Below the pieces are notes generated by a model. That model was not told the origin of the DNA and did no database searches. It was given only the letters and a program-made list of their open reading frames with translations. Shown here piece after piece: positions 650 to 45,496 of a stretch of DNA of 46,144 nt. The stretch spans positions 1 through 46,144 of the forward strand of contig JAJZEC010000026.1 of NCBI GenBank assembly GCA_021805825.1, written 5' to 3'. The translations under genes and the position numbers were made by a program. This DNA comes from Pseudomonadota bacterium (lineage in GTDB: Bacteria > Pseudomonadota > Gammaproteobacteria > Burkholderiales > Burkholderiaceae_C). How positions within the stretch are numbered: the stretch's first letter is position 1; each line of letters starts with the position of its first letter.

Positions 650-679
650 GATTAAGAGAGATTAGAAAGGATTAGCCTT
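650..679. repeat. Three 10-bp AT-rich direct repeats (possible unwinding element)
   Basis: GATTAAGAGA, GATTAGAAAG and GATTAGCCTT follow head to tail, starting at 650, 660 and 670. This is one of the few A/T-rich spots in a GC-rich stretch and lies about 70 bp from the iteron array. Iteron origins commonly carry an AT-rich region with short direct repeats where the helix opens. The repeats are visible directly; the origin role is inference. Confidence 0.45.
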
Positions 680-748
680 CACCGGCCAGAGCGCGCGCAG
701 CCATACGCGCGTTGACTTTTCTGCGCTCGAGCGTGTACTTCTCGGCCC

Positions 749-849
749 CGCTGGAACGGGCCCTTGGCCGCGCTGGAACGGCGGAGCGCACCTGCTGGAA
801 CGGCAGGGCGCACCCGCTGGAACGGTACCCGGCGCACTCGCTGGAACGG
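749..849. repeat. Five iteron-like direct repeats (candidate oriV)
   Basis: CGCTGGAACGG occurs at 749, 771, 815 and 839, and with one mismatch (TGCTGGAACGG) at 793. The spacing is 22, 22, 22 and 24 bp, about two helical turns. Spacers of repeats 2-4 share a GGCGCAC-like end, so the true unit may be about 17-19 bp. Iterons of about 17 bp with about 22-bp period are the binding sites of TrfA in RK2-type origins, and here the array touches the stop codon of a TrfA-family gene. Function as an origin is inferred. Confidence 0.7.
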
Positions 850-851
850 CA

Positions 852-1829
852 TCATGCGCTCCGCCTCGACGGTGACTTCGCAGCCCGCCTAGCCAAGTGC
901 CGCTGCTGTGAGGCCGTACCCGCCTTTGAAACCTCAACGAGATCCTCAGAGATCGTGTACCGGAACTTTTCGCCGTGAGCTTTGCTTGCTTCAGCGACGG
1001 CGGCCAGCGCCAGGCCCAGGGACTGGCGGAACCGCCGTATCTCGGCCTCGCTTCCGCAGAGCCGGCGCAAGGTCTCGACCCTGAAGCCGAATGGTTTCGC
1101 GTGAGTTGCGTAGAACCCGTGTAGCCATTCGGCAAGTTGATGGCCACGAAGCTCGCGACGAACGGCCCATTCCAACTGCGTGAACTGATCGCGGCAAAAC
1201 AGGGGACTCAACCTTGGGTCCAGCTCGATTGTCCACGACCGTGTGGACTCATCCTTGGCCGCGGATGCAATCAGACTACCGATATATGTGTGGCGCCCTT
1301 GCTGGACGGTCAGCGCCGTCGCCACGAGTCTTTCGATGCACGCTTGTAACGTCGCCCGATTCTTGCCGCTATCCGTCTTCCCCATGAGCTTCAACAAGGT
1401 GTACGAAGCCACTTTGCAATGACTTCCGATCCTCTGGTGCCTCACGGCGTGAAGAACACTCTGCCAGACGGTCAGATCGCATTGATCGAGACGCTCGCCT
1501 TTGTACCGGATGGCTACGCCATCGAGCGCGGCAATGGCTACGCCATGTAGGTAGCGCCGTCGCCCTCGCTGCACCACGCCGAAAAGGGCGCTACGCAGGA
1601 TCCCGTTTGGCACTGCACGGACTTCTTCGGGCCAATGCGGCAGCACAGCGGTAAGTGAAACTTGCGCGAAGTCGATGCCAGGGTGAGCACCAATGGTCGC
1701 CTCGGGGGCTCTTGCATTAGCGTCCGGTGGAACAGCCAGGCCCGCGTCGCGTCTAGATTTCGCCAACTCTGCACGAGCCAAAATGCGCTTCCACGAGTCC
1801 GGCTTTGCACAATTAGGGACGCTTGACAT
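852..1829 (-). CDS. TrfA-family plasmid replication initiator
   Basis: 325-aa protein resembling TrfA of broad-host-range plasmids, which binds iterons and recruits DnaA and helicase. The hallmark block lies at residues about 73-92 (VPNGILRSALFGVVQRGRRR), followed by a winged-helix-like region, as in the TrfA Pfam family. The N-terminus is shorter than RK2 TrfA (382 aa). The start at 1829 has a G-rich ribosome binding site (GGGGGG) a few bases upstream and overlaps the end of the helix-turn-helix gene by 17 bp, so translation is probably coupled. Five iteron-like repeats abut the 3' end. It shows no obvious lesion. Finding a plasmid initiator beside a chromosomal tRNA suggests an integrated plasmid or integrative element. 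Confidence 0.85.
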   Translation of the reverse strand: MSSVPNCAKPDSWKRILARAELAKSRRDAGLAVPPDANARAPEATIGAHPGIDFAQVSLTAVLPHWPEEVRAVPNGILRSALFGVVQRGRRRYLHGVAIAALDGVAIRYKGERLDQCDLTVWQSVLHAVRHQRIGSHCKVASYTLLKLMGKTDSGKNRATLQACIERLVATALTVQQGRHTYIGSLIASAAKDESTRSWTIELDPRLSPLFCRDQFTQLEWAVRRELRGHQLAEWLHGFYATHAKPFGFRVETLRRLCGSEAEIRRFRQSLGLALAAVAEASKAHGEKFRYTISEDLVEVSKAGTASQQRHLARRAAKSPSRRSA

Positions 1830-2217
1830 GGCTACCCCCCAAGAGCTCGGTTGTAGCCGACTTGCGTGGCCGTCCACGTCGAGGCGCCGTGGCAAGTGAA
1901 GATGTAGCCTTTGAGCGCGGCGTAAAAGGCGCCGCGGCGGTGCTAGTTGTATCCGCAAGTGGCTTACATGCGCTCTTGGCATCAGCAACGTCATTTGCTG
2001 TCGACAGCCCTCGCTCAATGATTCGCTCGAGATCAGTACGACGGATGTACTGCCGAGCACCGATGCGGATCGTTTCGAGGGCCCCGGACCGTATCAGTCC
2101 ATAGAGCTTGCTTCTGCCGTGCCCGAGAACGGCACAGCTATCGTTTATGGTGAACGCCTCTTGCAGGGCCGTCCGTAGACCGCCTGTTCGAGGATGAACA
2201 ATTGCCGCCATGGTCAT
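1813..2217 (-). CDS. Helix-turn-helix DNA-binding protein (AlpA/excisionase-like fold)
   Basis: 134-aa protein. Residues about 22-70 (core FTINDSCAVLGHGRSKLYGL) resemble MerR/excisionase-type helix-turn-helix domains: a helix pair followed by a short wing and an 'IRRTDLERII' segment. The C-terminal half is low-complexity and holds an AT-hook-like RRGRPRK. Its 3' end overlaps the TrfA-like start, so the two form an operon and it may regulate replication or excision. An alternative ATG lies at 2211. Neither start has a strong Shine-Dalgarno sequence. The family is reasonably clear; the target is unknown. Confidence 0.7.
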   Translation of the reverse strand: MTMAAIVHPRTGGLRTALQEAFTINDSCAVLGHGRSKLYGLIRSGALETIRIGARQYIRRTDLERIIERGLSTANDVADAKSACKPLADTTSTAAAPFTPRSKATSSLATAPRRGRPRKSATTELLGGSHVKRP

Positions 2218-2702
2218 CTACCGAGGGAGTCGTCCGGGAAGACCCCGGACGGTCCGCGATCGAAAGATGACCCTGCGCCCCGACCACCGAGCGTTGCACT
2301 CGGCCGGTTGCCTCGATGTGCGACGTCGAGGAGCACGGCGGGCCGCAGCTGGGCTAGATCACTGTTTCTTGGCGGCCGGGGTCCCTGACTCGCGATAAGG
2401 CGCCCATCGCACCGCCGTAATTCTCGGGGACTTACTGGCATTGCCCCGAGGTACGCGAACGGCGCCGGGTGCTCCCCCAGCAGTGCTAGCTATGCCCGCG
2501 TGAAAATGCTAACACGTGCGCTGGTGGCCGCAACAGTACCAACCGAGACAATTCGGGGACGGAGGCGATCCGCACGGATGCGCACACACGCGCACAGACT
2601 GGGACACTGCAGGGACATTGACGATGCAAGCGAGTCACGAATCGGCCCCGACGCATCTTCGATGAGATTTCGCAACCTATTGTTTTTGTTATGATAAATT
2701 GG
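2218..2702. other. Gene-free spacer between the replicon module and tRNA-Arg
   Basis: No supported coding region. The short open frames on both strands lack start signals and recognisable motifs. The stretch presumably holds the promoter of the leftward helix-turn-helix/trfA operon and the junction between the accessory DNA and the 3' end of tRNA-Arg at 2703. A slightly A/T-rich run at about 2660-2700 precedes the tRNA 3' end. I could not identify an integrase or the partner repeat of an attachment site in the window. Confidence 0.4.
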
Positions 2703-2776
2703 CCTGCCCGGAGGGAATCGAACCCCCGACCCACAGCTTAGAAGGCTGTTGCTCTATCCAACTGAGCTACGGGCAG
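2703..2776 (-). tRNA. tRNA-Arg (anticodon TCT)
   Basis: The minus strand folds as a tRNA. The acceptor arms are CTGCCCG/CGGGCAG, the D-arm reads GCTCAGTTGGATAGAGC, the anticodon loop CTTCTAA gives TCT, and the T-arm contains GGTTCGATTCC. CCA is not encoded in full. The 3' end faces the accessory DNA at 1-2702, the usual geometry of a tRNA used as an integration site. Confidence 0.95.
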
Positions 2777-10625: not shown

Positions 10626-10646
10626 CCCGCAAGTCGTTGAAAATTT

Positions 10647-10691
<45 letters not shown>

Positions 10692-10809
10692 CTGCCTTTG
10701 GGGGTCAAAAGCGCTCGATTTGACGGGGCCTCGGAAATCACAAGCTGTTGATTCTTAACAAGAATGCATTTTTGCTGCGACGCGGAAATTCGTTTGCAGC
10801 TAACGCCGA

Positions 10810-10847
10810 TTGGCAACAGAATGGCAACAGCAGGAGGGTTGTTGCCA
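10810..10847. promoter_or_regulatory. Candidate integrase arm-type sites, left end
   Basis: TTGGCAACA (10810-10818) and ATGGCAACA (10821-10829) lie 11 bp apart. A reverse copy, TGTTGCCA (10840-10847), overlaps the integrase start codon. The same paired motif recurs at the right end of the element. Short direct repeats near both att cores are typical arm sites of tyrosine integrases, and their overlap with the integrase ribosome binding region would allow autoregulation. Motif seen; function inferred. Confidence 0.5.
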
Positions 10848-12256
10848 TGGCAGGACGCAGGGTTGGACTGACCGTCAAGGAAATCGAAAACGCACGCGCC
10901 GACGGCGCGGACCGCTGGCTGAACGACGGCGGTGGCCTGTTCCTGCACGTGCGCCCTGCCGGCACCAAGACCTGGCGGCTGCGCTACACGGTGGCCGGCA
11001 AGCGCCGCATCGTCGACCTCGGCGACGCCAAGTTGAAGACCCTTGTCGAAGCCCGCCAGGATGCCGACGAGTTGCGCCGGGTCGTCGACAACGGCCTCGA
11101 TCCGATCGAGGAACAACGCAAGGCCCGCGAGGCCGCCGAGGCCGAGGAGCAACGCCGCCAGCAGGAGATCGCCTCGCGCCGCACCCTGGGGGACGCCGCC
11201 GCGCTGTGGCACAAGCTGCAGTTGGCCAACCGCAAGGACGGCGGCATCGAAGCCATGCGCATGCTGCGCAAGGACGTCATCAACGTCCTCGGCCATCGCG
11301 ACCTGCGCAGCATCGGGCGCGGCGATCTGCTCGCCTGCCTCGACGGCATCGTGGCACGCGGCGCGCGCGTGCAGGCCAACCATTGCCTGGTCGCGCTGAA
11401 GCAGTTCTATCGCTGGTGCGAAGCCCGCGACTGGGTCGACCGCTCGCCGCTGACCTGGATCGCGAAGAAACAGGTTGGCGGCGAAATGAAGGAACGCGAC
11501 CGCGTGCTCAGCCTGGACGAGATTCGTGCCCTGCGCGATCGACTGCCGCAGGCCAACCTGGAGCGCCACGCCGAACTCGCGATCTGGATCCTGCTGTCGA
11601 CGCTGGTGCGCGTCGGCGAACTCAGCCAGGCCGCGTGGAAGAATGTCGACCTGAATGCCGGAGTCTGGTACCTCCCGGAGACCAAGAACGGCCAGCCGCA
11701 CACGGTGTTCCTGTCGGAGTTCGCGCTGCGACAGTTCCGCGAACTCAGGACACTCACCGGATGGTCGGCATGGGTCATGCCATCTGCGCGCAAACGTGCA
11801 CCCGGCAAGGAAGCACCTCAACCAGAGATCGACGCGCCGATCGGCAAGCAGGCGCTGACCAAGCAGTTCACCGACCGCCAGAGTCCGCTGGACAAGAAGC
11901 ACCGCACGCAGGCCAAAGGCACGCTGACGCTTGATGGCGGTCGCTGGACCGCGCACGACCTGCGCCGTACCGGCGCGACCATCATGGGCGAGAACGGGGT
12001 GATGTCCGAAGTGATCGAACGCTGCCTGAACCACAAGGAACACCGCAAGGTGGTGCGGACCTATCAGCGGCAGGAACTCTTGCCGGAGCGGCGGGAAGCG
12101 TGGCGGGTGCTTGGCGATGCGCTGGATGCGGCCTTCAACAATGCTCCTCGCACGGTTGTGTCGCTCGGTACGGCCTCAAGGCAACGAGGCGCCACGGTGC
12201 ACTACCCCCAGTGGGGCCTCCCAAGATCCGCGCGCCGCCACGCGTCATCCATCTGA
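10847..12256 (+). CDS. P4-type tyrosine integrase
   Basis: 469-aa site-specific recombinase. The N-terminal DUF4102 arm-binding domain (residues about 7-90, LTVKEIENARA...WLNDGGGLFLHV) is typical of P4-like integrases that target tRNA genes. The catalytic domain shows TLVRVGELSQ (first Arg), HDLRRTG (His-x-x-Arg), LNHKEH and the terminal nucleophile context KVVRTYQRQ (Tyr). ATG 10847 has GGAGGG at 10833-10838. The reading frame extends upstream without a start signal. The gene begins about 155 bp from attL and reads into the element. The active site looks complete, so it may be functional. Confidence 0.95.
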   Translation: MAGRRVGLTVKEIENARADGADRWLNDGGGLFLHVRPAGTKTWRLRYTVAGKRRIVDLGDAKLKTLVEARQDADELRRVVDNGLDPIEEQRKAREAAEAEEQRRQQEIASRRTLGDAAALWHKLQLANRKDGGIEAMRMLRKDVINVLGHRDLRSIGRGDLLACLDGIVARGARVQANHCLVALKQFYRWCEARDWVDRSPLTWIAKKQVGGEMKERDRVLSLDEIRALRDRLPQANLERHAELAIWILLSTLVRVGELSQAAWKNVDLNAGVWYLPETKNGQPHTVFLSEFALRQFRELRTLTGWSAWVMPSARKRAPGKEAPQPEIDAPIGKQALTKQFTDRQSPLDKKHRTQAKGTLTLDGGRWTAHDLRRTGATIMGENGVMSEVIERCLNHKEHRKVVRTYQRQELLPERREAWRVLGDALDAAFNNAPRTVVSLGTASRQRGATVHYPQWGLPRSARRHASSI

Positions 12257-12466
12257 ACGCGCTGCGCTGAAATCTGCCGAGCAGCGACAGCCCGGCGACG
12301 GCACCTCGGCCATTGCTGCCACTGGGCCTATCCAGGGGAACGTCAGCACTGTGCCCCGCTGCTGACCTTGGCTGTATCTGGCTGCCGAATGTCCTGCGGC
12401 GGCAATGCGCCTGCACAGCTCAAATCGCTGCGGCCGTCGCCACCCGCCTGGCTGAACACGCGCGGG

Positions 12467-13339
12467 CTACGCGAGCGCAACGTAGATGTCGGTCTGCCAC
12501 AGTTGCGGCGGGGTTTCCGGGTAGACGCTGAGGTAGTGGAGGAACAGCGGCTGGTCGCGCAGTTCCTCGCCGCTGTGGGGCAGCCAGTCGCGATAGATCG
12601 GGTAGATCGTCTCGCCGATATGGTCCGGGGAGCCGACATGGCGCACGACGGCGCAGCGCCCGCCAGGCATGACAAGCTCGTACACGCCGAATTCGTTGGG
12701 CGCCACGGGCTCGGCGATCTCGCCGCAGATGTCGAAGCGGAACTCGTCGGGTGGCGTGGTATCGGGGTTGCCGTGAGGGATGCCGAAGGTGCGGCTGCTT
12801 TGCACCGGCGACTGGCCGCTTTGTTGGCGCCACGCGATGAAGCGCTGCACGCTGGCGTTGACCAGGCCGGGGGCGCCCCGGTGCGACAGTGCCGCGACGC
12901 GGGTGGGCGGGAATTCGACAATGCGGACTTGCATGACCATGCTCCTAGAAAAATGGGGGACGACGAACACCGCGCTCCAGACCTGCCAGTTCGGCGCGCG
13001 CCGGAAGCGCCCGGGCGCCATGCCGAACGCCCGCCGGAAGGCCCGCGAGAACGCCTCGGGGCTTTCGAAACCGGCTTCGAGTGCGGCTTGCAGCACCGAG
13101 CACCCGGCCTGGGACACCAGGCGGTGCGCGGCCCGGCGCAGGCGCATCAACTGCACGTAGCGCGCCACCGGCACACCGACGTAGGCGCTGAACTGGCGAT
13201 GGAAGTGAAACGCCGAGAAGTTTGCGACGCGGCTCAGAGCCTGCACCGAGAGGTCGCCTTCGAGGTTGGCGTCGATGTAGGCCAGGACGGCGTCGAAACG
13301 CTTAGCGTAGGCCTGGGCGGGAACCGTGCGGGTGTGCAT
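12467..13339 (-). CDS. AraC-family regulator with GyrI-like effector domain
   Basis: 290-aa transcription regulator. The N-terminal AraC double helix-turn-helix (about residues 10-110) contains LSRVANFSAFHFHRQFSAYV and AALEAGFESPEAFSRAFRRAFG. The C-terminal half (about 130-290) is a GyrI/SOUL-like small-molecule-binding domain with VRIVEFPPTRVAALSHRGAP near its start. This order is the reverse of classical AraC and matches Rob/SoxS-type GyrI-fused regulators. It is divergent from the acetyltransferase gene across 137 bp, so it may control it. It is element cargo. A 210-bp spacer with nothing recognisable separates it from the integrase. Confidence 0.9.
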   Translation of the reverse strand: MHTRTVPAQAYAKRFDAVLAYIDANLEGDLSVQALSRVANFSAFHFHRQFSAYVGVPVARYVQLMRLRRAAHRLVSQAGCSVLQAALEAGFESPEAFSRAFRRAFGMAPGRFRRAPNWQVWSAVFVVPHFSRSMVMQVRIVEFPPTRVAALSHRGAPGLVNASVQRFIAWRQQSGQSPVQSSRTFGIPHGNPDTTPPDEFRFDICGEIAEPVAPNEFGVYELVMPGGRCAVVRHVGSPDHIGETIYPIYRDWLPHSGEELRDQPLFLHYLSVYPETPPQLWQTDIYVALA

Positions 13340-13476
13340 GGCGACATGGTCGCTCGTGCGGCTCGCCTTGTCCTTGCCGCGTTTGCTCGATCGCCGAGAT
13401 CCTTGCCGGCTGCGCAGGCGCCGCGGCCGGTGGACGCTATGCTGCCGGCAACGGCCGCACGGCCAGTGAGCCAGGC

Positions 13477-14070
13477 ATGGATACGAACCCTTCCCGACAC
13501 ACCAAGCGCGTGGCGACGTCCAGCCTCGAATGGGCGGCCGAGGCCAACGACATCCGGCGCGGCATGCGCCTGGCCGCAGAGCTTAACAAGCTGGGCATTG
13601 ACGATGCGCAGCGCATCCGGGAACTCTTCGGTGAATTGACCGGACAGGCAGTCGACGAGACCTTCACGCTGCTGCCGCCCTTCTACACCGCCGGCGGGCG
13701 TCGCATCCGGGTCGGGCACAAGGTGTTCATCAACCAGTGCTGCACCATTTACGACATGGGCGGCGTGCAGATCGGCGACCTGGTGATGATCGGGCCGAAC
13801 GTGAACCTGATCACCACGGGCCACGCGATGGCGCCGTCGCAGCGCCGCAAGACCATCGAGTCGCGGCCGATCGTCATCGGGCGCAACGTATGGATCGCCG
13901 CGGGCGCGACGATCCTGGGCGGGGTAACCGTCGGCGACAACGCGGTGGTGGGCGCCGGCGCCGTGGTCACGCGCGACGTGCCGCCGAACACCTTCGTGGC
14001 CGGCGTGCCCGCGCGAGTCGTGCGGCACCTGGAAACAGACGAAGACCGCGAAGCGCCTTGCAGAGCCTGA
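13477..14070 (+). CDS. Hexapeptide-repeat O-acetyltransferase (maltose/NodL type)
   Basis: 197-aa left-handed beta-helix acetyltransferase using acetyl-CoA. The N-terminal segment resembles the maltose acetyltransferase domain. The core has VFINQCCTIYDMGGVQIGDLVMIGP, the catalytic His in ITTGHAMAP, and hexapeptide repeats VWIAAGATILGGVTVGDNAVVGAGAVV ending in VPARVVRHL. The acceptor (sugar or other hydroxyl compound) is unknown. ATG 13477 is the only suitable start. It is divergent from the AraC-GyrI gene and is cargo of the tRNA-Pro element. Confidence 0.9.
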   Translation: MDTNPSRHTKRVATSSLEWAAEANDIRRGMRLAAELNKLGIDDAQRIRELFGELTGQAVDETFTLLPPFYTAGGRRIRVGHKVFINQCCTIYDMGGVQIGDLVMIGPNVNLITTGHAMAPSQRRKTIESRPIVIGRNVWIAAGATILGGVTVGDNAVVGAGAVVTRDVPPNTFVAGVPARVVRHLETDEDREAPCRA

Positions 14071-14384
14071 GCGCCTCGGGGCGGCGCTCTGAACACGACC
14101 GTGACCGCCTCAAGGAGTGGCAGAAGCTCGGCCAGAGCGGGCGTTAGGCATGATCTGCGGCCGCGACCGCTTACTGCTTCCAGCGGTCGCACGCAGCGTC
14201 AACCTCCCGAGCGTCGGCTTCTCGCTTCCGCGAACTATCGCCGCGACCAATAGCGACTGCCCGGCGTCAACTATCGTGAGCGGCGACGCCGCTCAAGTTA
14301 ATTGTCGCCGGCCAAGCGACGGACCGGTTACCGACGCGCGGCCTGGACGAGACAGATATCGTTTGTCCGCCCTGAAAATGTGGC
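14071..14384. other. Gene-free cargo spacer
   Basis: No supported coding region in these 314 bp. A 7-bp stem hairpin (GAGCGGC/GCCGCTC, 14278-14294) is present without a T run. A GCGTTAGGC heptamer-like sequence near 14146 recalls an integron attC end, but no partner was found. Confidence 0.4.
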
Positions 14385-15308
14385 CTATGAAGCACCTCGA
14401 CTCAAGACGGCCAGCTGATTTCGAATGTATCGCCCGGGCGGCATGCCCACATATCGGGTGAAGGCCACGTTGAACGTGCTCGCAGAGCTGTAGCCCACCC
14501 GTTCGGCCACCACGGCGATGCCCACCTCCTTGCGCTGAAGCATGCTCTTGGCCAAGGCCATCCTCCAGGCCAGGAGGTACTCCATGGGCGAGACACCCAC
14601 TGCGCGGCTAAAGCGCTCAAAGAAGGTCGTCCTGGACAGGGCGGCTTCCTTTGCAAGACTGGCGATCGTCCACGGTCGACCTGGGTCTTCGTGCATCCGG
14701 CGTATAGCCGAGGCAAGGCGATCATCGGCCAATCCACGCAGCAAACCCGGCGACGCGGCCGTGCTGGCCGCCGATCGCAAGGCTTCCATCAGCAGCACCT
14801 CCAGCAATCGCGCAAGGATCGTGTCCCGACCTGGGCGTTGCTGGCTCGACTCACGGGCCACGAGCTGCACCAGCGTACCCATTTGGGCTTCGCCGCGGAT
14901 GTGCACGAGCTGGGGCAGAAGTGCCACGAGCAGTTTCGCGTCCGGCGAGCCGAAAGCGCAGTAGCCCACCAGCATGCGTGTGTCCGGCGGTCCGGTTGGG
15001 CGGCCGTGTCGGGTTTCGCCATTCAGTTGGGTCACCATCGAGGCGTCGTTGTCGCAGGGTCCCGTGGGCTCCAGTCCCGCCACGCTGAAGCCGAAGGCGG
15101 CAGGAATCAGGATGAAGTCGTCCTTCTGGAGGTCGATCGGTTCCATGCGGTCTATCTCGAGCCGCGCTCCCCCCTCCAGGACAACGCAGTAGAACGGTTG
15201 CCCCGCTTCGGCTCGGCGGACGCTCCAGGCGCCCGCCCCGCTGACCAACTTCGAGAACCGGGCACTCGGCTCGAGCAGCGTGGCAATTTCGGTGAGGGGG
15301 TCGGTCAT
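14385..15308 (-). CDS. AraC-family regulator with cupin_6-type sensor domain
   Basis: 307-aa regulator. Residues about 1-190 form an AraC-type cupin sensor (YCVVLEGGARLEIDR and DDFILIPAAFGFSV are typical strands). The C-terminal two-helix-turn-helix domain (about 205-300) includes IASLAKEAALSRTTFFERFS and VAERVGYSSASTFNVAFTRYVGMPPGRYI. The frame extends to a TTG at 15326, but ATG 15308 is the more likely start. It is divergent from the short-chain dehydrogenase, a common arrangement for AraC/SDR pairs, so it probably regulated that gene, which is now disrupted. Confidence 0.9.
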   Translation of the reverse strand: MTDPLTEIATLLEPSARFSKLVSGAGAWSVRRAEAGQPFYCVVLEGGARLEIDRMEPIDLQKDDFILIPAAFGFSVAGLEPTGPCDNDASMVTQLNGETRHGRPTGPPDTRMLVGYCAFGSPDAKLLVALLPQLVHIRGEAQMGTLVQLVARESSQQRPGRDTILARLLEVLLMEALRSAASTAASPGLLRGLADDRLASAIRRMHEDPGRPWTIASLAKEAALSRTTFFERFSRAVGVSPMEYLLAWRMALAKSMLQRKEVGIAVVAERVGYSSASTFNVAFTRYVGMPPGRYIRNQLAVLSRGAS

Positions 15309-15408
15309 ATCCGGACGATCAAACAATAAAAGCGGACTATTGATTGTAGATCGTTCTGATTGACGCTCCTATTCTTTCGGCACCGCAACCCGCTTCCAAG
15401 GAACTTTC
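15309..15408. promoter_or_regulatory. Divergent promoter region of the AraC/SDR pair
   Basis: 100-bp spacer between two divergent genes and visibly A/T-richer than its surroundings. It holds an inverted repeat CAATA (15324-15328) / TATTG (15338-15342) with a 9-bp spacer close to the regulator start, a plausible operator half-site arrangement. No consensus sigma-70 promoter can be assigned with confidence. Confidence 0.3.
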
Positions 15409-16164
15409 ATGAAGACCGTACTGATCACCGGATGATCCTCTGAATTCGGCCTCGAAACAGCCAGGCACTTCCTCGCCCGTGGCTGGAATGTTGTTGCGAC
15501 CATGCGCACCCCGCGCAAGGATCTGCTCCCCGAGTCCGAGCACCTTCGCATCGTGGCGCTCGACGTCACCGATCCGCAAAGCATTCGCCACGCGGTCGAG
15601 GCCGCCGGCCCGATCGACGCACTGGTCAACAACGCAGGGTTTGGGCTGATGGCCGCACTGGAGGGCACGCCGTTGGCAACGGTCCGGGACGTTTTCGAGA
15701 CGAACACATTCGGGCCGATGGCAATGATCCAGGCTGTCTTGCCTCAATTCCGTGAGCGCAACGCCGGCGTCATCGTGAACGTCTCGTCGAGCACGACGCT
15801 GAAGTCGCTCCCGCTGTTGTCGGTCTACACCGCCAGCAAGGCGGCGCTGAATGCGTTCAGTGAGTCGCTGGCGCTGGAGCTCGCACAGTTCAACGTGCGA
15901 GTCGGTCTGGTGTTGCCCGGGCGCTCGCCCGAGACGCCGTTCAGCCAAACGGCGCAGCAGCGCGCGCAAGCCCTGGAGGGCGCCATCCCAGAGGCCTACG
16001 CGGACTTCGCCCAGGGCGTGTTCGCACGCATGCGCCAGGGCTCGGCCCTTGTCACGCACGCGGACGACGTGGCACAGGCCGTGTGGCGCATGGTGAACGA
16101 TGCAGCGAGCCCACTGCGTGTGGCCGCGGGCGCCGACGCTTTGGCGTTGGCCGAGGCGCTCTGA
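15409..16164 (+). pseudogene. Short-chain dehydrogenase/reductase with in-frame stop
   Basis: Reading from ATG 15409, the protein begins MKTVLITG and then meets TGA at 15433-15435, inside the glycine-rich cofactor motif TGxSSGxG. The frame continues intact to 16164. Downstream are NNAG (in ALVNNAGFG), the catalytic Ser in NVSSSTT and YTASK (Tyr-x-x-x-Lys). The stop probably arose from TGC (Cys, the usual residue) to TGA, and the following motif Gly is also changed (SSEFG). Restart at ATG 15502 would give 220 aa without the nucleotide-binding loop, so activity is unlikely. It is cargo of the element, divergent from the cupin-AraC gene. Confidence 0.85.
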
Positions 16165-16526
16165 CGCGATTGGGCGGCGGCACCCGGCCAACGCTAGAAA
16201 AAGCCGATCCGGGTGCAGCACCCCTCAGAGTCCCCTGAGGACACCATTGCCGTCATTGCCGCGCCGGGGTGTCAGCGCCCGCAAAGGCCGACCTCCAGTC
16301 CTTGGCCCAACAAGGGCATCTCGGGCAAGGCTGGCGTTGGCGAGAGGTTGCACCGACAACCGCAGGACGGTAGTCAGTGGCGACAACCGTTGCGTCTGGA
16401 TGCAATGGGTACGTGCGCGGAGCACAACAGGTCATTGCGCTGCCTGGTTGAGGCTCCCGCTGCCTGCGCGCCTGCCGAAGCCTCCTAGCGGTTTGCGCTA
16501 CATGGGCGACGCCAGTCTGCCACCGT

Positions 16527-16650
16527 CGAGAAATAGGCCATTGTTCAAGGCCATTTTCGGGAAATGGCCCATTTCTTTGGCCCATTGATCGGAATGGGCC
16601 ATTGTTCGTGGCCATTTCTCGGGAAATAGGCCATTGTTCATGGCCCATTC
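16527..16650. repeat. About 31-bp imperfect tandem repeat, four copies
   Basis: Four imperfect units start near 16527, 16558, 16590 and 16620, each with a CGGGAAAT(A/G)GGCC-like start followed by ATTGTTC or a variant and a GGCCATT block. Palindromic GGCCATT/AATGGCC blocks recur within units, so the array can form alternative hairpins. The base composition is lower in GC than the flanks. Function unknown; it could be a protein-binding array of the mobilization or partition system. Confidence 0.65.
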
Positions 16651-17091
16651 GGATCCCGGGGCACCACCGATGGCGCATTTGGTGCCTTGAACGCCCCCCG
16701 AAGACCCCTCGTGTCTGACCACAGCTGCATGGTTGCGCCCCATGACGAGAGCTCGTCCGGCGCCGCGTGCGCAAAGGACCGTAGTCCTCGGCGCGAGGTG
16801 GGGGGAGGACCATTGCTTCCTGGCAAATGTTTTCCTTCGCACGCCGCGACAGCGGCCTGCGAAGGGTGCATGGCGCTGGAAGTTGCTGCTGCGCGTGCCG
16901 TTGTGGGGGCACATGCTGTCGTGGCACGGCTGCCGTGGCTGGTGGGGGTTGGCTCTGCTCTTGCACCACCACATGGTCTACCCCGCGACGTTGTCGCCCA
17001 TGTGCGTGCGCTGCGTTGTCGCTACCGTGGCATCGAGGCCGCCGCTTCAGCATCGAAAGGCTGCCTGCCAGAGAGAGGCCCTCAACCTACT

Positions 17092-17136
17092 AGCACCCTT
17101 CGGGTGCTGTAGGCGAAGGAAGGGTGCCCCTTCCTT
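17092..17136. repeat. Paired hairpins upstream of the relaxase (candidate oriT)
   Basis: Two perfect inverted repeats lie 7 bp apart: AGCACCC/GGGTGCT (17092-17108, loop TTC) and AAGGAAGGG/CCCTTCCTT (17116-17136, loop TGC). They are about 140 bp upstream of the MobV-type gene and read in its direction. MobV transfer origins contain inverted repeats next to the nick site just upstream of mob, so this is the best oriT candidate. I did not find a confident nick-site match. Confidence 0.4.
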
Positions 17137-17274
17137 TCGAAACCTTCCCAACCCCGCTGGCTTGGCTGATGTCGCCTGGCGCGCTGACCGCTTCGATCAT
17201 CGCACCTCGGCTATTCCCGCTTAATGCGATCGCCTCTACAACGACACCGTATGCGGCTCGATGGAGGTGGAACC

Positions 17275-18819
17275 ATGCTGGACCATGAACATGCCGAGGA
17301 ACTGCTGCCCCGGGTCTCGGTGCGCCTGGCCGGCGTGCCTGCGACCCGCCTGGCGTTCGTCGCTCGCCACAACCTGCGTCAAGGCCCGCCACCGGGGTAC
17401 GTCGATCCGGCACGCGCGCATCTGAACGCGGTCCTGTTCGGCCCGGAGGCCGGCGACTTCAAGGCGGCAGCGCTCGCCAGCGCCGAGCGTTACCGGAACC
17501 GGGTCGGGCAGAAGGTACAGCGCAAGCAAGCCTTGCTGGTGGAAGGCATCGTCACGTTCTCGCGCGCCGCGCAGCCCATCGTGCAGCAAGACCTGGAGCA
17601 AGCGCACGCTCGCGCCCTCGCCTTGGTCGAGGAGATCGTGCGAACCCACGGGTACGGCGCCAAGCTAGTGTCGCTGGTCTATCACGGGGATGAGTCCGCG
17701 CCGCACTATCACTTCCTGCTCGAAGGCGTCGGTGCCGATGGCCGCGCGGTCCTGCAGCGGTTCCAGCGGCGCCAAGGGACGCAACTGCAGGACCTTGCGG
17801 GTCTGGCCTTCGCGCCGATGGGCATTCAACGCGGCATCCCGGTGATTCAGCGCATGCAGCGCGGCGACGACCGCAGCAAGGTCGTCCATCGCAGCGTCCG
17901 ACAGCTGCATGCCGATCTGCCGAAGGAACTTGCGGCCAGGCAGCGACAAGTTGCGGCCGTGGCCGTCTACCTCGCCAAGTTGCAGGCCAAGGCCGGCACC
18001 ACCGAGTCCCGGCTGAACAAGGCTCACGCGGAACTCGCCAAGGTGCAGGCCCAAGCCAGCGTCGATGCGGCCCGTGTTGCCAGGCTGGAGGAACGCATCA
18101 AGGACTACACGGTGCGCTTGGCAAACCAGCGCGCGCAAATCGATGCGGCGATGCCCAAGCCGGTCGAAGTCACCGTGGTCACCGGCACCGAGAAGGGCTT
18201 GCTCGGCAGCAGGCCAACGACTGCCGTGCAATCGTTCTACTCCGCCGAGGAGGTGGCGCGCTTTGCCGATCGCTTGAACCATGCGCTGCTGCGTGAGAAG
18301 GATCGCGCGCGCAAGGCCGAGCAGGAACGCGCAGTCGCGCAGGCCCAGGCACAGCGCCTGCACTCGATCATCGCGCCCTACCCCCAGTTGGGTTGGCGCC
18401 GGCAGGCACGAGCAGCCGGCGAGCAGGGGCCCGAGCAAGGCCGGGTGATCCACATGGACCAGCGCTACGTCTACGCGGTCGAGGCGCGCACCGATGCGTT
18501 GATCGAAGGACCAAGGCCGCGCGATGTGGAGGTGGACTTCGGCATGGTGCTGGAGTTCGATCACGACCGCGTCGTACCGCCGAGCAAGCCCGACGTTCAG
18601 CCCTGGGGCCTGGAACAGGTGATCGCCGCGATCCCGCGATTCGTCACCGACAGAATGCCGAGCGCCTTGCCCATGCTCGCCGCTCGGCTTGCCAGCGAGG
18701 ACGCGGAATTGCGCGAGGAAAGGCGCCGCCAGATGGCCGAGGCCGGATCGGACCTTGCCCCTGACACTGACGATGCCGCCCATGCGCCCGTGCAGGCGCC
18801 TGGCAACGACTGGGCGTGA
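17275..18819 (+). CDS. MobV/Pre-type plasmid mobilization relaxase
   Basis: 514-aa relaxase-like protein that would nick at oriT and lead DNA transfer. MobV motifs are in order: RHNLR (31-35) with DPARAHLN (44-51), a VEGIVTFS motif near 89-96, and the metal-binding motif H137-x-D139-E140-x-x-x-H144-x-H146 within YHGDESAPHYHF. A long coiled-coil-like stretch (about 215-290) follows, then an unassigned C-terminal region. ATG 17275 has GGAGGTGG just upstream. It is the last gene before attR and the only transfer gene on the element, consistent with mobilization by a helper. Confidence 0.85.
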   Translation: MLDHEHAEELLPRVSVRLAGVPATRLAFVARHNLRQGPPPGYVDPARAHLNAVLFGPEAGDFKAAALASAERYRNRVGQKVQRKQALLVEGIVTFSRAAQPIVQQDLEQAHARALALVEEIVRTHGYGAKLVSLVYHGDESAPHYHFLLEGVGADGRAVLQRFQRRQGTQLQDLAGLAFAPMGIQRGIPVIQRMQRGDDRSKVVHRSVRQLHADLPKELAARQRQVAAVAVYLAKLQAKAGTTESRLNKAHAELAKVQAQASVDAARVARLEERIKDYTVRLANQRAQIDAAMPKPVEVTVVTGTEKGLLGSRPTTAVQSFYSAEEVARFADRLNHALLREKDRARKAEQERAVAQAQAQRLHSIIAPYPQLGWRRQARAAGEQGPEQGRVIHMDQRYVYAVEARTDALIEGPRPRDVEVDFGMVLEFDHDRVVPPSKPDVQPWGLEQVIAAIPRFVTDRMPSALPMLAARLASEDAELREERRRQMAEAGSDLAPDTDDAAHAPVQAPGNDWA

Positions 18820-18924
18820 GCCGCAGCACCCTGGGTGCCGCATCAGCCCCACGGCCCTGTGCCGGCCGCTCAGCGCCTGCCAGTGTCGGCCATGCGCAAC
18901 GCGAGCCGCTGCTGCCTGCGCCAA

Positions 18925-18944
18925 TTGGCAACAGATTGGCAACA
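18925..18944. promoter_or_regulatory. Candidate integrase arm-type sites, right end
   Basis: TTGGCAACA occurs at 18925-18933 and 18936-18944, 11 bp apart, the same motif and spacing as the pair near the integrase gene at 10810-10829. It lies just inside attR. Two matching pairs at opposite ends support an integrase-binding role. Confidence 0.55.
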
Positions 18945-18950
18945 AACCCC

Positions 18951-19078
<128 letters not shown>

Positions 19079-42598: not shown

Positions 42599-43534
42599 AT
42601 GCACCTCGTTCAAACCATGGCCTATGTCGGTGCCGAACCCTGGCACGGACTGGGCCAACGCCTTCAACCTCGCGAGCCCATCGAGGCCTGGCAACAAGCC
42701 GCCGGCATGGACTGGACCATCGAGTCCTCGCCTGTCCGCTTCTTCAACGGCTCCGAGACCCTGCACAGCTTCCCCGAGCAACTGGTGCTTCACCGCTCGG
42801 ACAACCACGCTCCCCTCGCAGTCGTGAGCCAGCGCTTCCAGGTCGTGCAGCCCCGAGAAATCCTGGAGTTCTACCGCGACCTCAGCGAAGTGTCCGGCTT
42901 CGAGCTGGAGACCGCGGGCGTCTTGAAGGGCGGCAAGAAGTTCTGGGCCCTGGCGCGCACCGGGCAGTCGGCCGTGCTCAAGGGCCACGATCAGGTCAAA
43001 GGCTACTTGCTGCTGGCCACCGCCTGCGACGGAACCTTGGCCACCACGGCGCAGTTCACGTCGGTCCGAGTCGTGTGCAACAACACGCTGCACATTGCCC
43101 TCGGTGACAACATGGGCGCAGTGAAGGTCAGCCATCGGTCCAGCTTCGACGCCGACGCTGTGAAGCGGCAGCTCGGCATTGCCGTCTCCAGCTGGGACAG
43201 CTTCTTGGTCCGCATAAAGGCCCTGTCCGAACGCAAGGTGAGCGACGCTCAGGCCGAAGCGTTCCTCGCCAAGGTACTCACCCTGCCCCAGCACGGGCAA
43301 GCCCCGCAGAAGCCCATTGCAGCGGTTCTGGAGCTATTCCAAGGCCATGGCAAGGGAGCGGAGCTGGCCTCGGCCAAGGGAACAGCGTGGGGTCTCGTCA
43401 ACGCGGTGACGGAGTACGCCGACCACAGCAAGCGAGCCCGCAGCACCGACCACCGACTGGACTCGGCGTGGTTTGGACCTGGTGCGCAGCTGAAGCAAGC
43501 AGCCTGGCAGGAGGCCTTGAAGCTCGTCTCGTAG
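42599..43534 (+). CDS. DUF932 phage/plasmid-like protein
   Basis: 311-aa protein of the DUF932 / TIGR03299 family. The typical N-terminus 'MAYVGAEPWHGLGQRL' and the core AVVSQRFQVVQPREILEFYRDL, TSVRVVCNNTL and VKVSHRSSFDADAVK are present. The family is found on plasmids, phages and conjugative elements near recombination genes; its biochemistry is unknown. ATG 42599 has CTGGAGAAC upstream, the same ribosome binding sequence as the YqaJ gene. First large gene of the operon. Confidence 0.88.
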   Translation: MHLVQTMAYVGAEPWHGLGQRLQPREPIEAWQQAAGMDWTIESSPVRFFNGSETLHSFPEQLVLHRSDNHAPLAVVSQRFQVVQPREILEFYRDLSEVSGFELETAGVLKGGKKFWALARTGQSAVLKGHDQVKGYLLLATACDGTLATTAQFTSVRVVCNNTLHIALGDNMGAVKVSHRSSFDADAVKRQLGIAVSSWDSFLVRIKALSERKVSDAQAEAFLAKVLTLPQHGQAPQKPIAAVLELFQGHGKGAELASAKGTAWGLVNAVTEYADHSKRARSTDHRLDSAWFGPGAQLKQAAWQEALKLVS

Positions 43535-43568
43535 CGCGTAACGACCGTTACGGCGTAACCAACCTGGC

Positions 43569-43600
43569 GCCCGGCCCAGCTCAGCGCTGCCCGGGCTTTT
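43569..43600 (+). terminator. Hairpin with T run between DUF932 and YqaJ genes
   Basis: GCCCGG pairs with CCGGGC, with an inner CAGC/GCTG stem, followed by TTTT. It could terminate or attenuate transcription after the DUF932 gene. A second small hairpin, CGTAAC/GTTACG (43537-43552), precedes it. Confidence 0.5.
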
Positions 43601-43619
43601 CCATTTCTGGAGAACGACC

Positions 43620-44606
43620 ATGCAACCCCAGCAACAACCTCGACCCAGGCCAGCACTTCGCCTGGTCTCCACCAACACCTTGAGCCGCGACGAGTGGCTG
43701 CAGGTTCGTCGGCGTGGCATTGGCAGCTCCGACGCTGCTGCTTCCGTGGGACTGAACCCCTACCAGTCGCAGCTCGAACTCTGGCTCGTGAAGACCGGAC
43801 GCGACAGCAACCTGCCGAAGGACGACCCCAATGACGAGAGCTCGCCCATGTATTGGGGAACGTTGCTCGAACCCATTGTGGCCGCCCACTACACCAAGCG
43901 CACTGGCCTGCGTGTACGCCGCGTCAACAGCGTGCTGCAACACCCTGAGCACCCCTGGCTGCTAGCCAACATCGACCGGGAGGTCCTGGGCTCGTCGGAG
44001 GTGAGCGTCCTGGAGTGCAAGACCGCAGGCATCAACGGCGCGAAGCTTTGGCGTGAAGGCGTTCCCGAGTACGTGCAGCTTCAGGTCCAGCACCAACTCG
44101 CTGTGACCGGCAAAGCAGCTGCTGACGTTGCCGTGCTGCTCGGGGGGCAGGAGTTGCAGGTTCACCGTGTGGTCCGTGATGACAAGCTCATTGCCCGCCT
44201 CATTGAGCTCGAAGCCAGGTTCTGGGCCTACGTCGAAGCGGACACGCCACCACCTGCAGACGGCTCGGACTCGGCTGCTCAGGCGCTGCAAGCCCTCTAC
44301 CCCTACGACAACGGGGCAACGGTCGACTTCAAGGCCGACACGAAGCTCAGCACCACGTTTTCCGACTGGCTCTCAATCAGGGCCAAGCGCGAAGAACTGG
44401 AGCAGCAGGAGGCCCAGTGCAAGGCCACATTGCAGCAAGCCATGGGTGACGCCACACGCGCGGAGTTCGAAGCCGGCGCCGTGAGCTGGAAGCGCAGCAA
44501 GGACAGCACCGTGTTGGACGTCGAAGCCTTGCTCAAGGCTCAACCCGAGTTGCTGCAGAAGTACCCGAAGACCCGCCCGGGAAGCCGGCGGTTCACGTTG
44601 CTCTGA
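43620..44606 (+). CDS. YqaJ-type viral recombinase nuclease
   Basis: 328-aa nuclease of the lambda-exonuclease-like YqaJ family. Catalytic signatures: RRGIGSSDAAASVGLNPY, YWGTLLEPIVAAHY (Glu), NIDREVLG (Asp) and VLECKTAG (Glu-x-Lys). It would resect double-stranded DNA ends for single-strand annealing recombination. ATG 43620 has CTGGAGAAC upstream. A RecT/Bet annealing partner is not visible in the window. Its neighbours are the DUF932 and Gp3-like genes, a set typical of integrative and conjugative elements. Confidence 0.92.
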   Translation: MQPQQQPRPRPALRLVSTNTLSRDEWLQVRRRGIGSSDAAASVGLNPYQSQLELWLVKTGRDSNLPKDDPNDESSPMYWGTLLEPIVAAHYTKRTGLRVRRVNSVLQHPEHPWLLANIDREVLGSSEVSVLECKTAGINGAKLWREGVPEYVQLQVQHQLAVTGKAAADVAVLLGGQELQVHRVVRDDKLIARLIELEARFWAYVEADTPPPADGSDSAAQALQALYPYDNGATVDFKADTKLSTTFSDWLSIRAKREELEQQEAQCKATLQQAMGDATRAEFEAGAVSWKRSKDSTVLDVEALLKAQPELLQKYPKTRPGSRRFTLL

Positions 44607-44620
44607 ACCAGGAGGAAGTC

Positions 44621-45496
44621 ATGATTGAAGGTCTCGCCATCACGCCGCCCGTGCTGGGGCGCATTTCCATTGGCAAGGTAGTCGAACGCAACGGTAAACG
44701 CCTACCGGAGAAGGACGATGAGTTCACGGTCACGAGCCTGGTCCAGGGCAAGGACGGCTGGGTACATCACCCCCTCGACGAAGTTCTGCGCAAGGCCTCG
44801 GCGGAGAAGAAGCTCAGGGCTCTGCCGGTGAAGGTCCTCTTCGCCGATCCCGACCTGAGCCTGCGAGCTGAGTACACCGCCTTCAACCGGCAAACGGGAA
44901 GACCCGTGTGTGCTGGCAACGGGCAGAGCTGCAAGCGCAGGACAGCGGAGGGGCTGGTCACGTTGCCCTGTCCGACGCCGGAGAACTGTGCGGTCGCAGA
45001 CGAGCTCGGGTGCAAGCCCTACGGGCGCCTGAACGTGCAGCTCGAAGGCCAGGAGGACGAGCTGGGAAGCTTCGTGTTCCGGACCACGGGGTACAACAGC
45101 ATTCGCACCCTGGCTGCCAGGCTGAAGTACTTCCAGGCACTCGCTGGGACAGCGCTTCCGTGTCTGCCGTTGACGCTCAAGCTTCGGGCCAAGAGTACGA
45201 CCCAGAGCCACCGGTCGGCGGTGTACTTCGTGGACCTCGTGGTGCGGGAAGGGCTGACGCTTGAGCAAGCGCTGCAGAAGGCCAAGGAGGAGAGCAGCGC
45301 TCGTGAAGCCGCGGGCTGGAACCAGGCCGCGTTGGACCAAGCTGCGCTCGACGGGCTGAAGAACGGAGCGTTCGAGGATAGCGAAGAAGAAGGCGAGGCG
45401 GTACTCGAGGAGTTCTACTCCGCGGGCCCTGCACAGCCAGCAACGACGCTGGCCGAGAAGCTCGAGGCCAAGGCTACCGCTGGGAGTGCGCCATGA
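44621..45496 (+). CDS. Gp3-like (recombination directionality factor-type) protein
   Basis: 291-aa protein resembling Gp3-like proteins, sometimes annotated as hydrolase or metal-binding. LPVKVLFADPDLSLRAEYTA is followed by a cysteine cluster (RPVCAGNGQSCKRR, LPCPTPENCAV, LGCKPYGRL) likely to bind zinc, then FVFRTTGYNSIRTLAARL. The acidic C-terminus is low complexity. ATG 44621 has AGGAGG six bases before and lies 14 bp after the YqaJ stop. It may steer a serine recombinase or support DNA recombination; the exact role is inferred. Confidence 0.7.
   Translation: MIEGLAITPPVLGRISIGKVVERNGKRLPEKDDEFTVTSLVQGKDGWVHHPLDEVLRKASAEKKLRALPVKVLFADPDLSLRAEYTAFNRQTGRPVCAGNGQSCKRRTAEGLVTLPCPTPENCAVADELGCKPYGRLNVQLEGQEDELGSFVFRTTGYNSIRTLAARLKYFQALAGTALPCLPLTLKLRAKSTTQSHRSAVYFVDLVVREGLTLEQALQKAKEESSAREAAGWNQAALDQAALDGLKNGAFEDSEEEGEAVLEEFYSAGPAQPATTLAEKLEAKATAGSAP

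Follow-up and report, generated by a model that had tools for sequence, protein, structure and literature searches.

The left edge of the 46,144-bp stretch of DNA analyzed here (the window), which is an entire contig (C77), one of the 110 that make up a 3.35-Mb draft genome, is most likely (probability roughly 0.8) the tRNA-proximal end of an integrative element that sits at the 3' end of a tRNA-Arg(TCT) gene and carries a TrfA replicon. The element would extend from position 2699 to position 1 and beyond the insertion sequence at that edge. This reading follows from the recurrence of the same layout in nine genomes, from complete elements in four of them, and from a pair of TGTCCC sites shared with such elements.

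Organization of the left edge of the window

Since the tRNA-Arg gene lies on the minus strand, its 3' end faces, in this order, a gene for a small HTH_17 protein (2217–1813), trfA, the iterons and the AT-rich repeats, after which comes the contig end (Table 1). Thus, the replicon does adjoin a chromosomal tRNA, as the original prediction from the bare sequence had stated, and it is the 3' end of that tRNA which points toward trfA. A free plasmid caught in the assembly is ruled out, for the same contig has the tRNA and a neighbor gene that are conserved in eight congener loci.

As the window is the whole contig, its left edge is the contig end, and this break lies about 540 bp past the AT-rich repeats, in bases that look like the end of an insertion sequence: read on the minus strand, positions 1–106 open a transposase-like frame, which we take to belong to an insertion sequence family. 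The far end of the element would lie beyond it.

Table 1. Features at the left edge of the window, with candidate roles where these are proposed
Feature	Position	Strand	Remarks
Insertion sequence end (putative) at contig break	1–106	-	98% match to G000:C7:23382–23487, 83% to C51
Three GATTA repeats (TAATC on gene strand); probable DNA unwinding element	650–674	-	at 650, 660 and 670; 10-bp spacing
Spacer between iterons and AT-rich repeats	675–749		75 bp; without the DnaA box of most relatives
Five iterons, GCTGGAACGG (CCGTTCCAGC on gene strand)	750–849	+	starts 750, 772, 794, 816, 840; spacing 22/22/22/24
trfA, replication initiator	852–1829	-	325 aa from ATG, uninterrupted; stop codon 852–854; Pfam TrfA 7.2e-20
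Small HTH_17 protein gene; possible excisionase or regulator	1813–2217	-	Pfam HTH_17 7.1e-9; overlaps trfA start by 17 nt
Second, degenerate pair of 11-bp period (CGTCCC, TGTCTC)	2545–2561	-	by eye, against G420 and G422
TGTCCC-N5-TGTCCC; probable integrase arm sites	2601–2617	-	82 and 93 bp from tRNA 3' end; only such pair in the window
Probable attachment core, 3' part of tRNA-Arg	2700–2747	-	extent borrowed from the 48-bp repeat of congener G308
tRNA-Arg(TCT), integration target	2700–2776	-	conserved tRNA and neighbor-gene block ends at 2698–2699 in eight congener loci

The initiator gene

The gene that had been assigned to the TrfA family belongs there by its Pfam match, with 71.6 bits against PF07042 at a curated cut-off of 22. 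A search for related loci that used this TrfA sequence alone turned up no confirmed relative. A search of the PDB with its sequence gave no match, and an AlphaFold model built from seven sequences is weak (pLDDT 60, pTM 0.41). In a Foldseek search with this weak model, the PDB matches ranked 1–27 are entries of RepE54, Rep, RctB and Pi, i.e., all replication initiators, with E-values of 1e-5 to 7e-3 and query TM-scores of 0.23–0.31, and with some entry titles naming only the co-crystal series.

Against three relatives, the window trfA has a dN of 0.34–0.41 and a dS of 1.8–2.9, the latter saturated, giving dN/dS values of 0.14–0.19, next to 0.21–0.30 among those three. Substitutions unique to the window gene number 41, 38 and 58 at codon positions 1, 2 and 3 (7/8/10, 18/11/30 and 18/14/26 for the three relatives), a mild third-position bias that leaves room for relaxed constraint on this branch. 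The branch is also long (0.83) in a tree of 19 TrfA sequences, where 10 of the 16 inner forks are open, while a clade of 14 sequences of the CCGTTCCAGC type has support of 100/99 and mixes plasmids with tRNA-linked copies. In an alignment of few sequences inspected by eye, the TrfAs that go with CCGTTCCAGC-like iterons share a GKTDTGKNR-like stretch, which is missing from L023, L132 and L133 with their other iterons.

Chromosomal trfA copies in G129 and G295 were considered as functional evidence and set aside, being partial matches only (residues 66–261 and 176–261 in G129; 206–324 in G295). Two further oddities among the homologs may be recorded: the plasmid pVEIS01 (L021:5001–5669) codes for a TrfA without an internal stretch found in its relatives, with one exact iteron core remaining after the gene, and contig C181 of G709 (L306, L313) carries two trfA copies of equal score in opposite orientation about 29 kb apart.

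The small gene before trfA might, from its HTH_17 domain, code for an excisionase or a regulator. By eye, a small HTH-like gene occupies the same place in the window, G065, G259, G069 and G423; Pfam backs HTH_17 only for the window and for the viral contig L265 (described below), with no support in the three others scanned. No co-oriented HTH gene is listed before trfA in G422 and G421.

The origin region and its relatives

The iteron core GCTGGAACGG occurs five times at the end of trfA and nowhere else in the 46,144 bases of the window (mean 0.23 and maximum 2 in 100 shuffles), and all ten of its positions are invariant over the five copies, as opposed to two among the 14 flanking columns displayed. 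Two bases separate the last copy from the trfA stop codon. Five repeats of 22–24-bp period at the 3' end of the gene had indeed been proposed, and they are found at 750–849 next to the stop codon at 852–854; the 11-mer CGCTGGAACGG given for them is exact in four of the five copies, whereas copy three starts with T. The three AT-rich repeats that had been placed about 70 bp further out are the GATTA repeats, 75 bp from the outermost iteron core, and probably constitute the DNA unwinding element.

Two or three TAATC words at 10–11-bp spacing follow trfA in 15 of 16 relatives whose origins were read, a set that leaves out G259, and the 10/10 spacing of the window recurs in L265 and L184. The distance from the last iteron core to the first TAATC, 75 bp in the window, is 76 bp in nine relatives (pBR1.1, pENT-6b61, pVEIS01, G423, G421, G422, L212, L214 and L265) and deviates in L184 (119) and L190 (121); in five of the 16 the value is not comparable, either for want of a TAATC cluster or because a different word serves as the main iteron. 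In contrast, no DnaA box can be recognized in the window spacer, the best match having three mismatches, whereas a match is seen in all 16 relatives, with no more than one mismatch in 10 of them and with two in the other six.

The missing DnaA box, together with the perfect iteron cores, would suit an initiator and iterons that no longer replicate and have been turned into a DNA-binding repressor with its operator array. This is improbable in view of the retained AT-rich repeats and 75-bp spacing, features that should be of importance for strand opening alone.

The closest plasmid TrfAs, at 61% identity, are those of two small plasmids of the pBR1.1 type (rep_cluster_2147), Delftia pBR1.1 (NZ_OK324135.1) and pENT-6b61 (CP026191.1), in which the trfA stop is followed by eight and five CCGTTCCAGC cores, respectively, at 22 bp (23 once), then by CTATCCACA, and then by TAATC repeats. 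The window thus has the CCGTTCCAGC iterons, at a period of about 22 bp directly after trfA, and the TAATC words of these plasmids, and departs from them in several respects: they occur as free circles and have a different small gene ahead of trfA, where the window has the HTH_17 gene; the 22-bp units of their arrays hardly differ from one another, while only the 10-bp core is constant in the window; and their CTATCCACA resembles a DnaA box, which the window lacks. The same iterons also follow trfA on a 5.7-kb contig (G168:C63) with a relaxase-like frame, as judged by eye.

A scan for paired iteron cores, with a query that did not contain TrfA, gave at least 119 genome-contig stretches and 10 viral ones; a TrfA gene was found by tblastn in eight of the 129 loci listed, and the other 121 were dropped. 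Hence, the check that had been proposed along with the original prediction, to look for this iteron at the 3' ends of other TrfA genes, comes out positive in pBR1.1, pENT-6b61, G168:C63 and these eight loci. A separate observation concerns the IMG/VR contig L265 (1–5114), which joins the same trfA and iterons to an HTH_17 gene, a ParA-like gene and a phage lysozyme gene, and is possibly a phage-plasmid.

As had also been surmised, the iteron is unlike that of RK2, as far as the word that we take to be the RK2 iteron goes, and it matches the pBR1.1-type plasmids instead; an RK2-type origin is therefore ruled out. The RK2/IncP-1 trfA-oriV system is similar to the window in combining a TrfA-family initiator and iterons with an AT-rich, repeated unwinding region; the parts of PMC4081077 that describe the RK2 unwinding repeats name DnaA boxes and four 13-mers, while the window has no DnaA box and three GATTA repeats.

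The tRNA-Arg gene as integration site

A query of the tRNA and its neighbor gene finds some match in all 28 genomes of the genus, the own one included. In eight congener loci (L059–L066), where the two are joined, the match stops at 2698–2699, i.e., at the 3' end of the tRNA, so that the neighbor block is conserved right up to the point where the element starts. Second copies of the tRNA-Arg(TCT) end are seen in congeners: one of 48 bp at a distance of 39 kb in G308, one of 47 bp at 17 kb in G420, and one of 27–28 bp on another contig in G409. Adjacent to this second copy, on its inner side, G308 and G420 each have a tyrosine integrase. About 2–4 kb from the tRNA, G308 has RepC and AAA_25 proteins and G420 a D5_N protein, and a homolog of the window TrfA or HTH protein is found in none of 18 congener stretches.

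The own assembly, by comparison, has no second copy of a 19-mer from the tRNA end at up to one mismatch. Its nine PF00589 matches show a weak likeness to the integrase family of the elements (best 29% over 238 aa), and a query with the G308 integrase was likewise weak (best 2.3e-5), so no integrase clearly of that family was found in it; the 2.7 kb of the element on this contig contain no integrase gene. The phage integrase of the window (10748–12256, Arm-DNA-bind_3) sits inside a 47-bp repeat with tRNA-Pro and therefore belongs to another element. That second, small integrative element occupies 10645–19078 of the window, between a 47-bp direct repeat (10645–10691) and a tRNA-Pro(TGG) gene (19002–19078), and codes for an AraC-type regulator; a weak Mob_Pre match at 17224–18819 falls below the cut-off.

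The far end of the tRNA-Arg element is thus absent or unassembled. The description of the replicon as complete-looking in the original prediction was too strong: iterons, AT-rich repeats and trfA are there, while a DnaA box, a second attachment copy and a clear family integrase were not found. These three gaps count against full function of the window copy, which may have been cut down or impaired. A narrower form of the main reading, according to which an insertion sequence or a deletion removed the integrase and the far attachment site and left an immobile, decaying remnant with the initiator, the iterons and one end, is a serious possibility, although one to be held tentatively and at somewhat below even odds. 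It would accommodate the lack of a second attachment copy and of a clear family integrase in the own assembly, the insertion sequence at the contig end, the missing DnaA box along with the degenerate second pair of arm sites, and the long TrfA branch with its mild third-position bias. Yet, trfA is uninterrupted with a dN/dS of 0.14–0.19 (on a saturated dS), none of the five iteron cores deviates, and the spacing within the origin is preserved; moreover, as the contig breaks at a repeat, the absent part may simply be unassembled.

Elements with the same layout at other tRNA genes

The order of tRNA followed by trfA, with the tRNA upstream and co-oriented, is found in nine distinct genomes including that of the window, at seven tRNA species. 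Four of these genomes hold complete elements of 14–24 kb, which start with the tRNA and trfA and finish with an integrase and a perfect 45–49-bp repeat of the 3' portion of the tRNA: contig C1 of G422, a Xanthomonas bin (JADFDQ010000010.1; tRNA-Val(CAC), 49-bp repeat, 17.4 kb); G069:C33 (tRNA-Ala(CGC), 45-bp repeat, 14.0 kb); G259:C27 (tRNA-Ala(CGC), 45-bp repeat, 24.1 kb); and G423:C23 (JAKBJU010000018.1; tRNA-Met(CAT), 47-bp repeat, 15.9 kb). Their integrases are 39–69% identical to each other and 37–44% identical to those of G308 and G420. The iteron of the window recurs in G422 and G423, while G069 has another. As for transfer functions, G069 carries a relaxase (PF03432), and G423 a TraG_N protein and a coupling-protein homolog.

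In G837, trfA, iterons of another word and a family integrase accompany a tRNA-Ser(GGA) gene, the contig ending 62 bp behind the integrase with no second tRNA copy on it. This contig (C47; L330, 15,868 bp) starts 10 bp before the target tRNA, whereby contig and element nearly coincide. Only the tRNA end is visible in G065 (Ala CGC), G421 (Ser GCT), G856 (Leu CAA) and the window. G947 differs, having an integrase in two pieces beside tRNA-Met and a trfA with the same iteron type about 11 kb away; its longest downstream tRNA copy measures 18 bp. Behind the TrfA origin of G069, with its other iterons, lie three words of the CTTGAGGGGC type (L032:2633–2885), one of them inverted, that resemble the RK2 iteron.

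The layout is confined to a part of the TrfA homologs. A tRNA lies within a flank of at most 1.5 kb of trfA in four of 30 loci of the family sample (the window, L027, L031 and L032; 32 places matched, two of them without a locus), in none of 10 in the class sample, and in three of eight besides the window in the order sample, where L317 was counted as a duplicate of L187; from these counts, most TrfA homologs are without it. Among the iteron-scan matches listed, the figure is three of eight TrfA loci. G949:C23 and G903:C22 were counted as duplicates of G423/L187 and L184, respectively, their contigs being of identical length.

Paired TGTCCC sites beside the tRNA

Between the tRNA and the HTH_17 gene, the window carries a TGTCCC pair that probably represents the arm sites of an integrase. 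TGTCCC lies 82/93 bp from the tRNA end in the window, 80/91 bp in G420, 103/114 in G422, 101/112/122 in G421 and 50/61 in G409, and both G422 and G420 carry the pair at the integrase end as well. Across 334 loci (2.17 Mb, with overlaps counted apart), TGTCCC-N5-TGTCCC has 21 matches at 11 distinct places, nine of which are ends of tRNA elements: the window, G409, three in G420, three in G422, and G421. The remaining two lie beside an integrase of G421 (L300) and in G295. TGTCCC is absent from six of 11 tRNA flanks examined, and other elements have other words at 11-bp period.

The period itself is less telling. The window flank has a repeat of 8/9 bases at 11 bp (shuffle P 0.007), and the 10-bp period scores equally. 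When 13 flanks are scored for their best 9-base repeat at this period, all 13 reach at least 7/9, nine reach at least 8/9 and four reach 9/9, as compared with 289, 62 and 3 per 1000 random 250-bp stretches; among periods of 9–13 bp, that of 11 bp is strictly best in five flanks, tied in five (the window included) and beaten in three. Since other periods do as well or better in eight flanks, only the shared TGTCCC pair is taken as evidence, and not the 11-bp period.

Integrative element or integrated plasmid

The original prediction had left the choice between an integrated plasmid and an integrative element. The first would be a free plasmid of the pBR1.1 type that was integrated by homologous or insertion sequence-mediated recombination and came to lie beside the tRNA by chance. 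Its appeal comes from the closest TrfA relatives, which include small plasmids with the same iterons, and from the CCGTTCCAGC clade in which plasmids and tRNA-linked copies are mixed. Nevertheless, it is quite unlikely: the block boundary falls at the tRNA 3' end and the paired site of G420 is present; an inspection by eye of the open reading frame list shows nothing between the tRNA and trfA that resembles the relaxase of pBR1.1 or the gene upstream of it; and the tRNA–trfA order recurs at seven tRNA species, with attachment pairs in four genomes. The integrative element is favored by the congener attachment sites at tRNA-Arg(TCT), the paired site like that of G420, and the four complete relatives.

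For the element thus favored, the anatomy, the fit of initiator and iterons, the tRNA target and the existence of complete relatives are established by comparison, and excision, replication and the parts played by the HTH protein and the arm sites are inferred. A course of events can be proposed. If the element is active at present, an integrase at the far end, off the contig, would excise it as a circle, perhaps with the HTH protein acting as excisionase. TrfA, made from the overlapping gene pair, would bind the iterons and open the AT-rich repeats, whereupon theta replication would start and the circle would be kept until reinsertion or transfer. The recurrence of the layout at other tRNA genes in other bacteria suggests that such elements are able to replicate once out of the chromosome.

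Evolutionary considerations

The window element is not the first of its kind, since TrfA in integrative elements has already been published: the part of PMC8409611 that concerns them describes TrfA-encoding, yicC-specific integrative elements related to SGI1, which are proposed to replicate independently, and a passage of PMC9035990 mentions a trfA-like rep in SGI1-related elements of Vibrio cholerae. The yicC elements resemble the window in placing a PF07042 initiator in an integrative element, and differ in their target, which is yicC rather than a tRNA-Arg gene; an AcaCD-binding motif is predicted upstream of their trfA in the same part of PMC8409611. SGI1 itself, with its rep-oriV, may also be likened to the window as an integrative element with an iteron-based origin and, by the account in that part of PMC8409611, a replicating excised form. 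It is set apart by an initiator of another family (pfam04796, according to the passage in PMC9035990), by trmE as target, and by control through a helper plasmid. With integration at tRNA-Arg, the window falls outside these trmE- and yicC-targeting groups, whose backbone is not to be seen in it. PMC5704250 lists SGI1 and BcenGI2 with Rep_3 initiators and other mobilizable elements with RepA/RepC, whereas PMC4405046 and PMC7765201 mention trfA only in other contexts. Elements that target tRNA genes and carry this TrfA origin were found nowhere in the literature searched, outside which most subscription journals fall.

These patterns raise a wider reading, for and against which the odds appear about even, namely, that the window represents a family of integrative elements at tRNA genes which has not been described so far and has members in Burkholderiales, a Xanthomonas bin and others. 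In this family, the tRNA-proximal end would be a slot that receives a replication module, in many cases preceded by a small HTH-like gene. TrfA and its own iterons would occupy the slot in the nine genomes, RepC with an AAA_25 (RepA-like) protein in G308, and a D5-type primase-helicase in G420, the latter two elements both sitting in the same tRNA-Arg(TCT). Given that the same TrfA replicons also exist as small plasmids, exchange of the module would let lineages move between a plasmid and an integrated existence. The G308 locus (L097:14359–16372), where RepC and AAA_25 genes lie near the same tRNA-Arg, is in its own right an integrated element, and its pair of plasmid-type replication genes is a different one.

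The four complete and five partial elements, the window included, provide a set for testing conditional replication after excision against free plasmids with the same origin, and they bear on the interconversion of integrative elements and plasmids.

At its right edge, where the contig also ends, the window has consecutive DUF932, YqaJ recombinase and Gp3-like genes (42599–45496), probably a further mobile region, and the G+C content is lower (0.51–0.64) across 38–46 kb.
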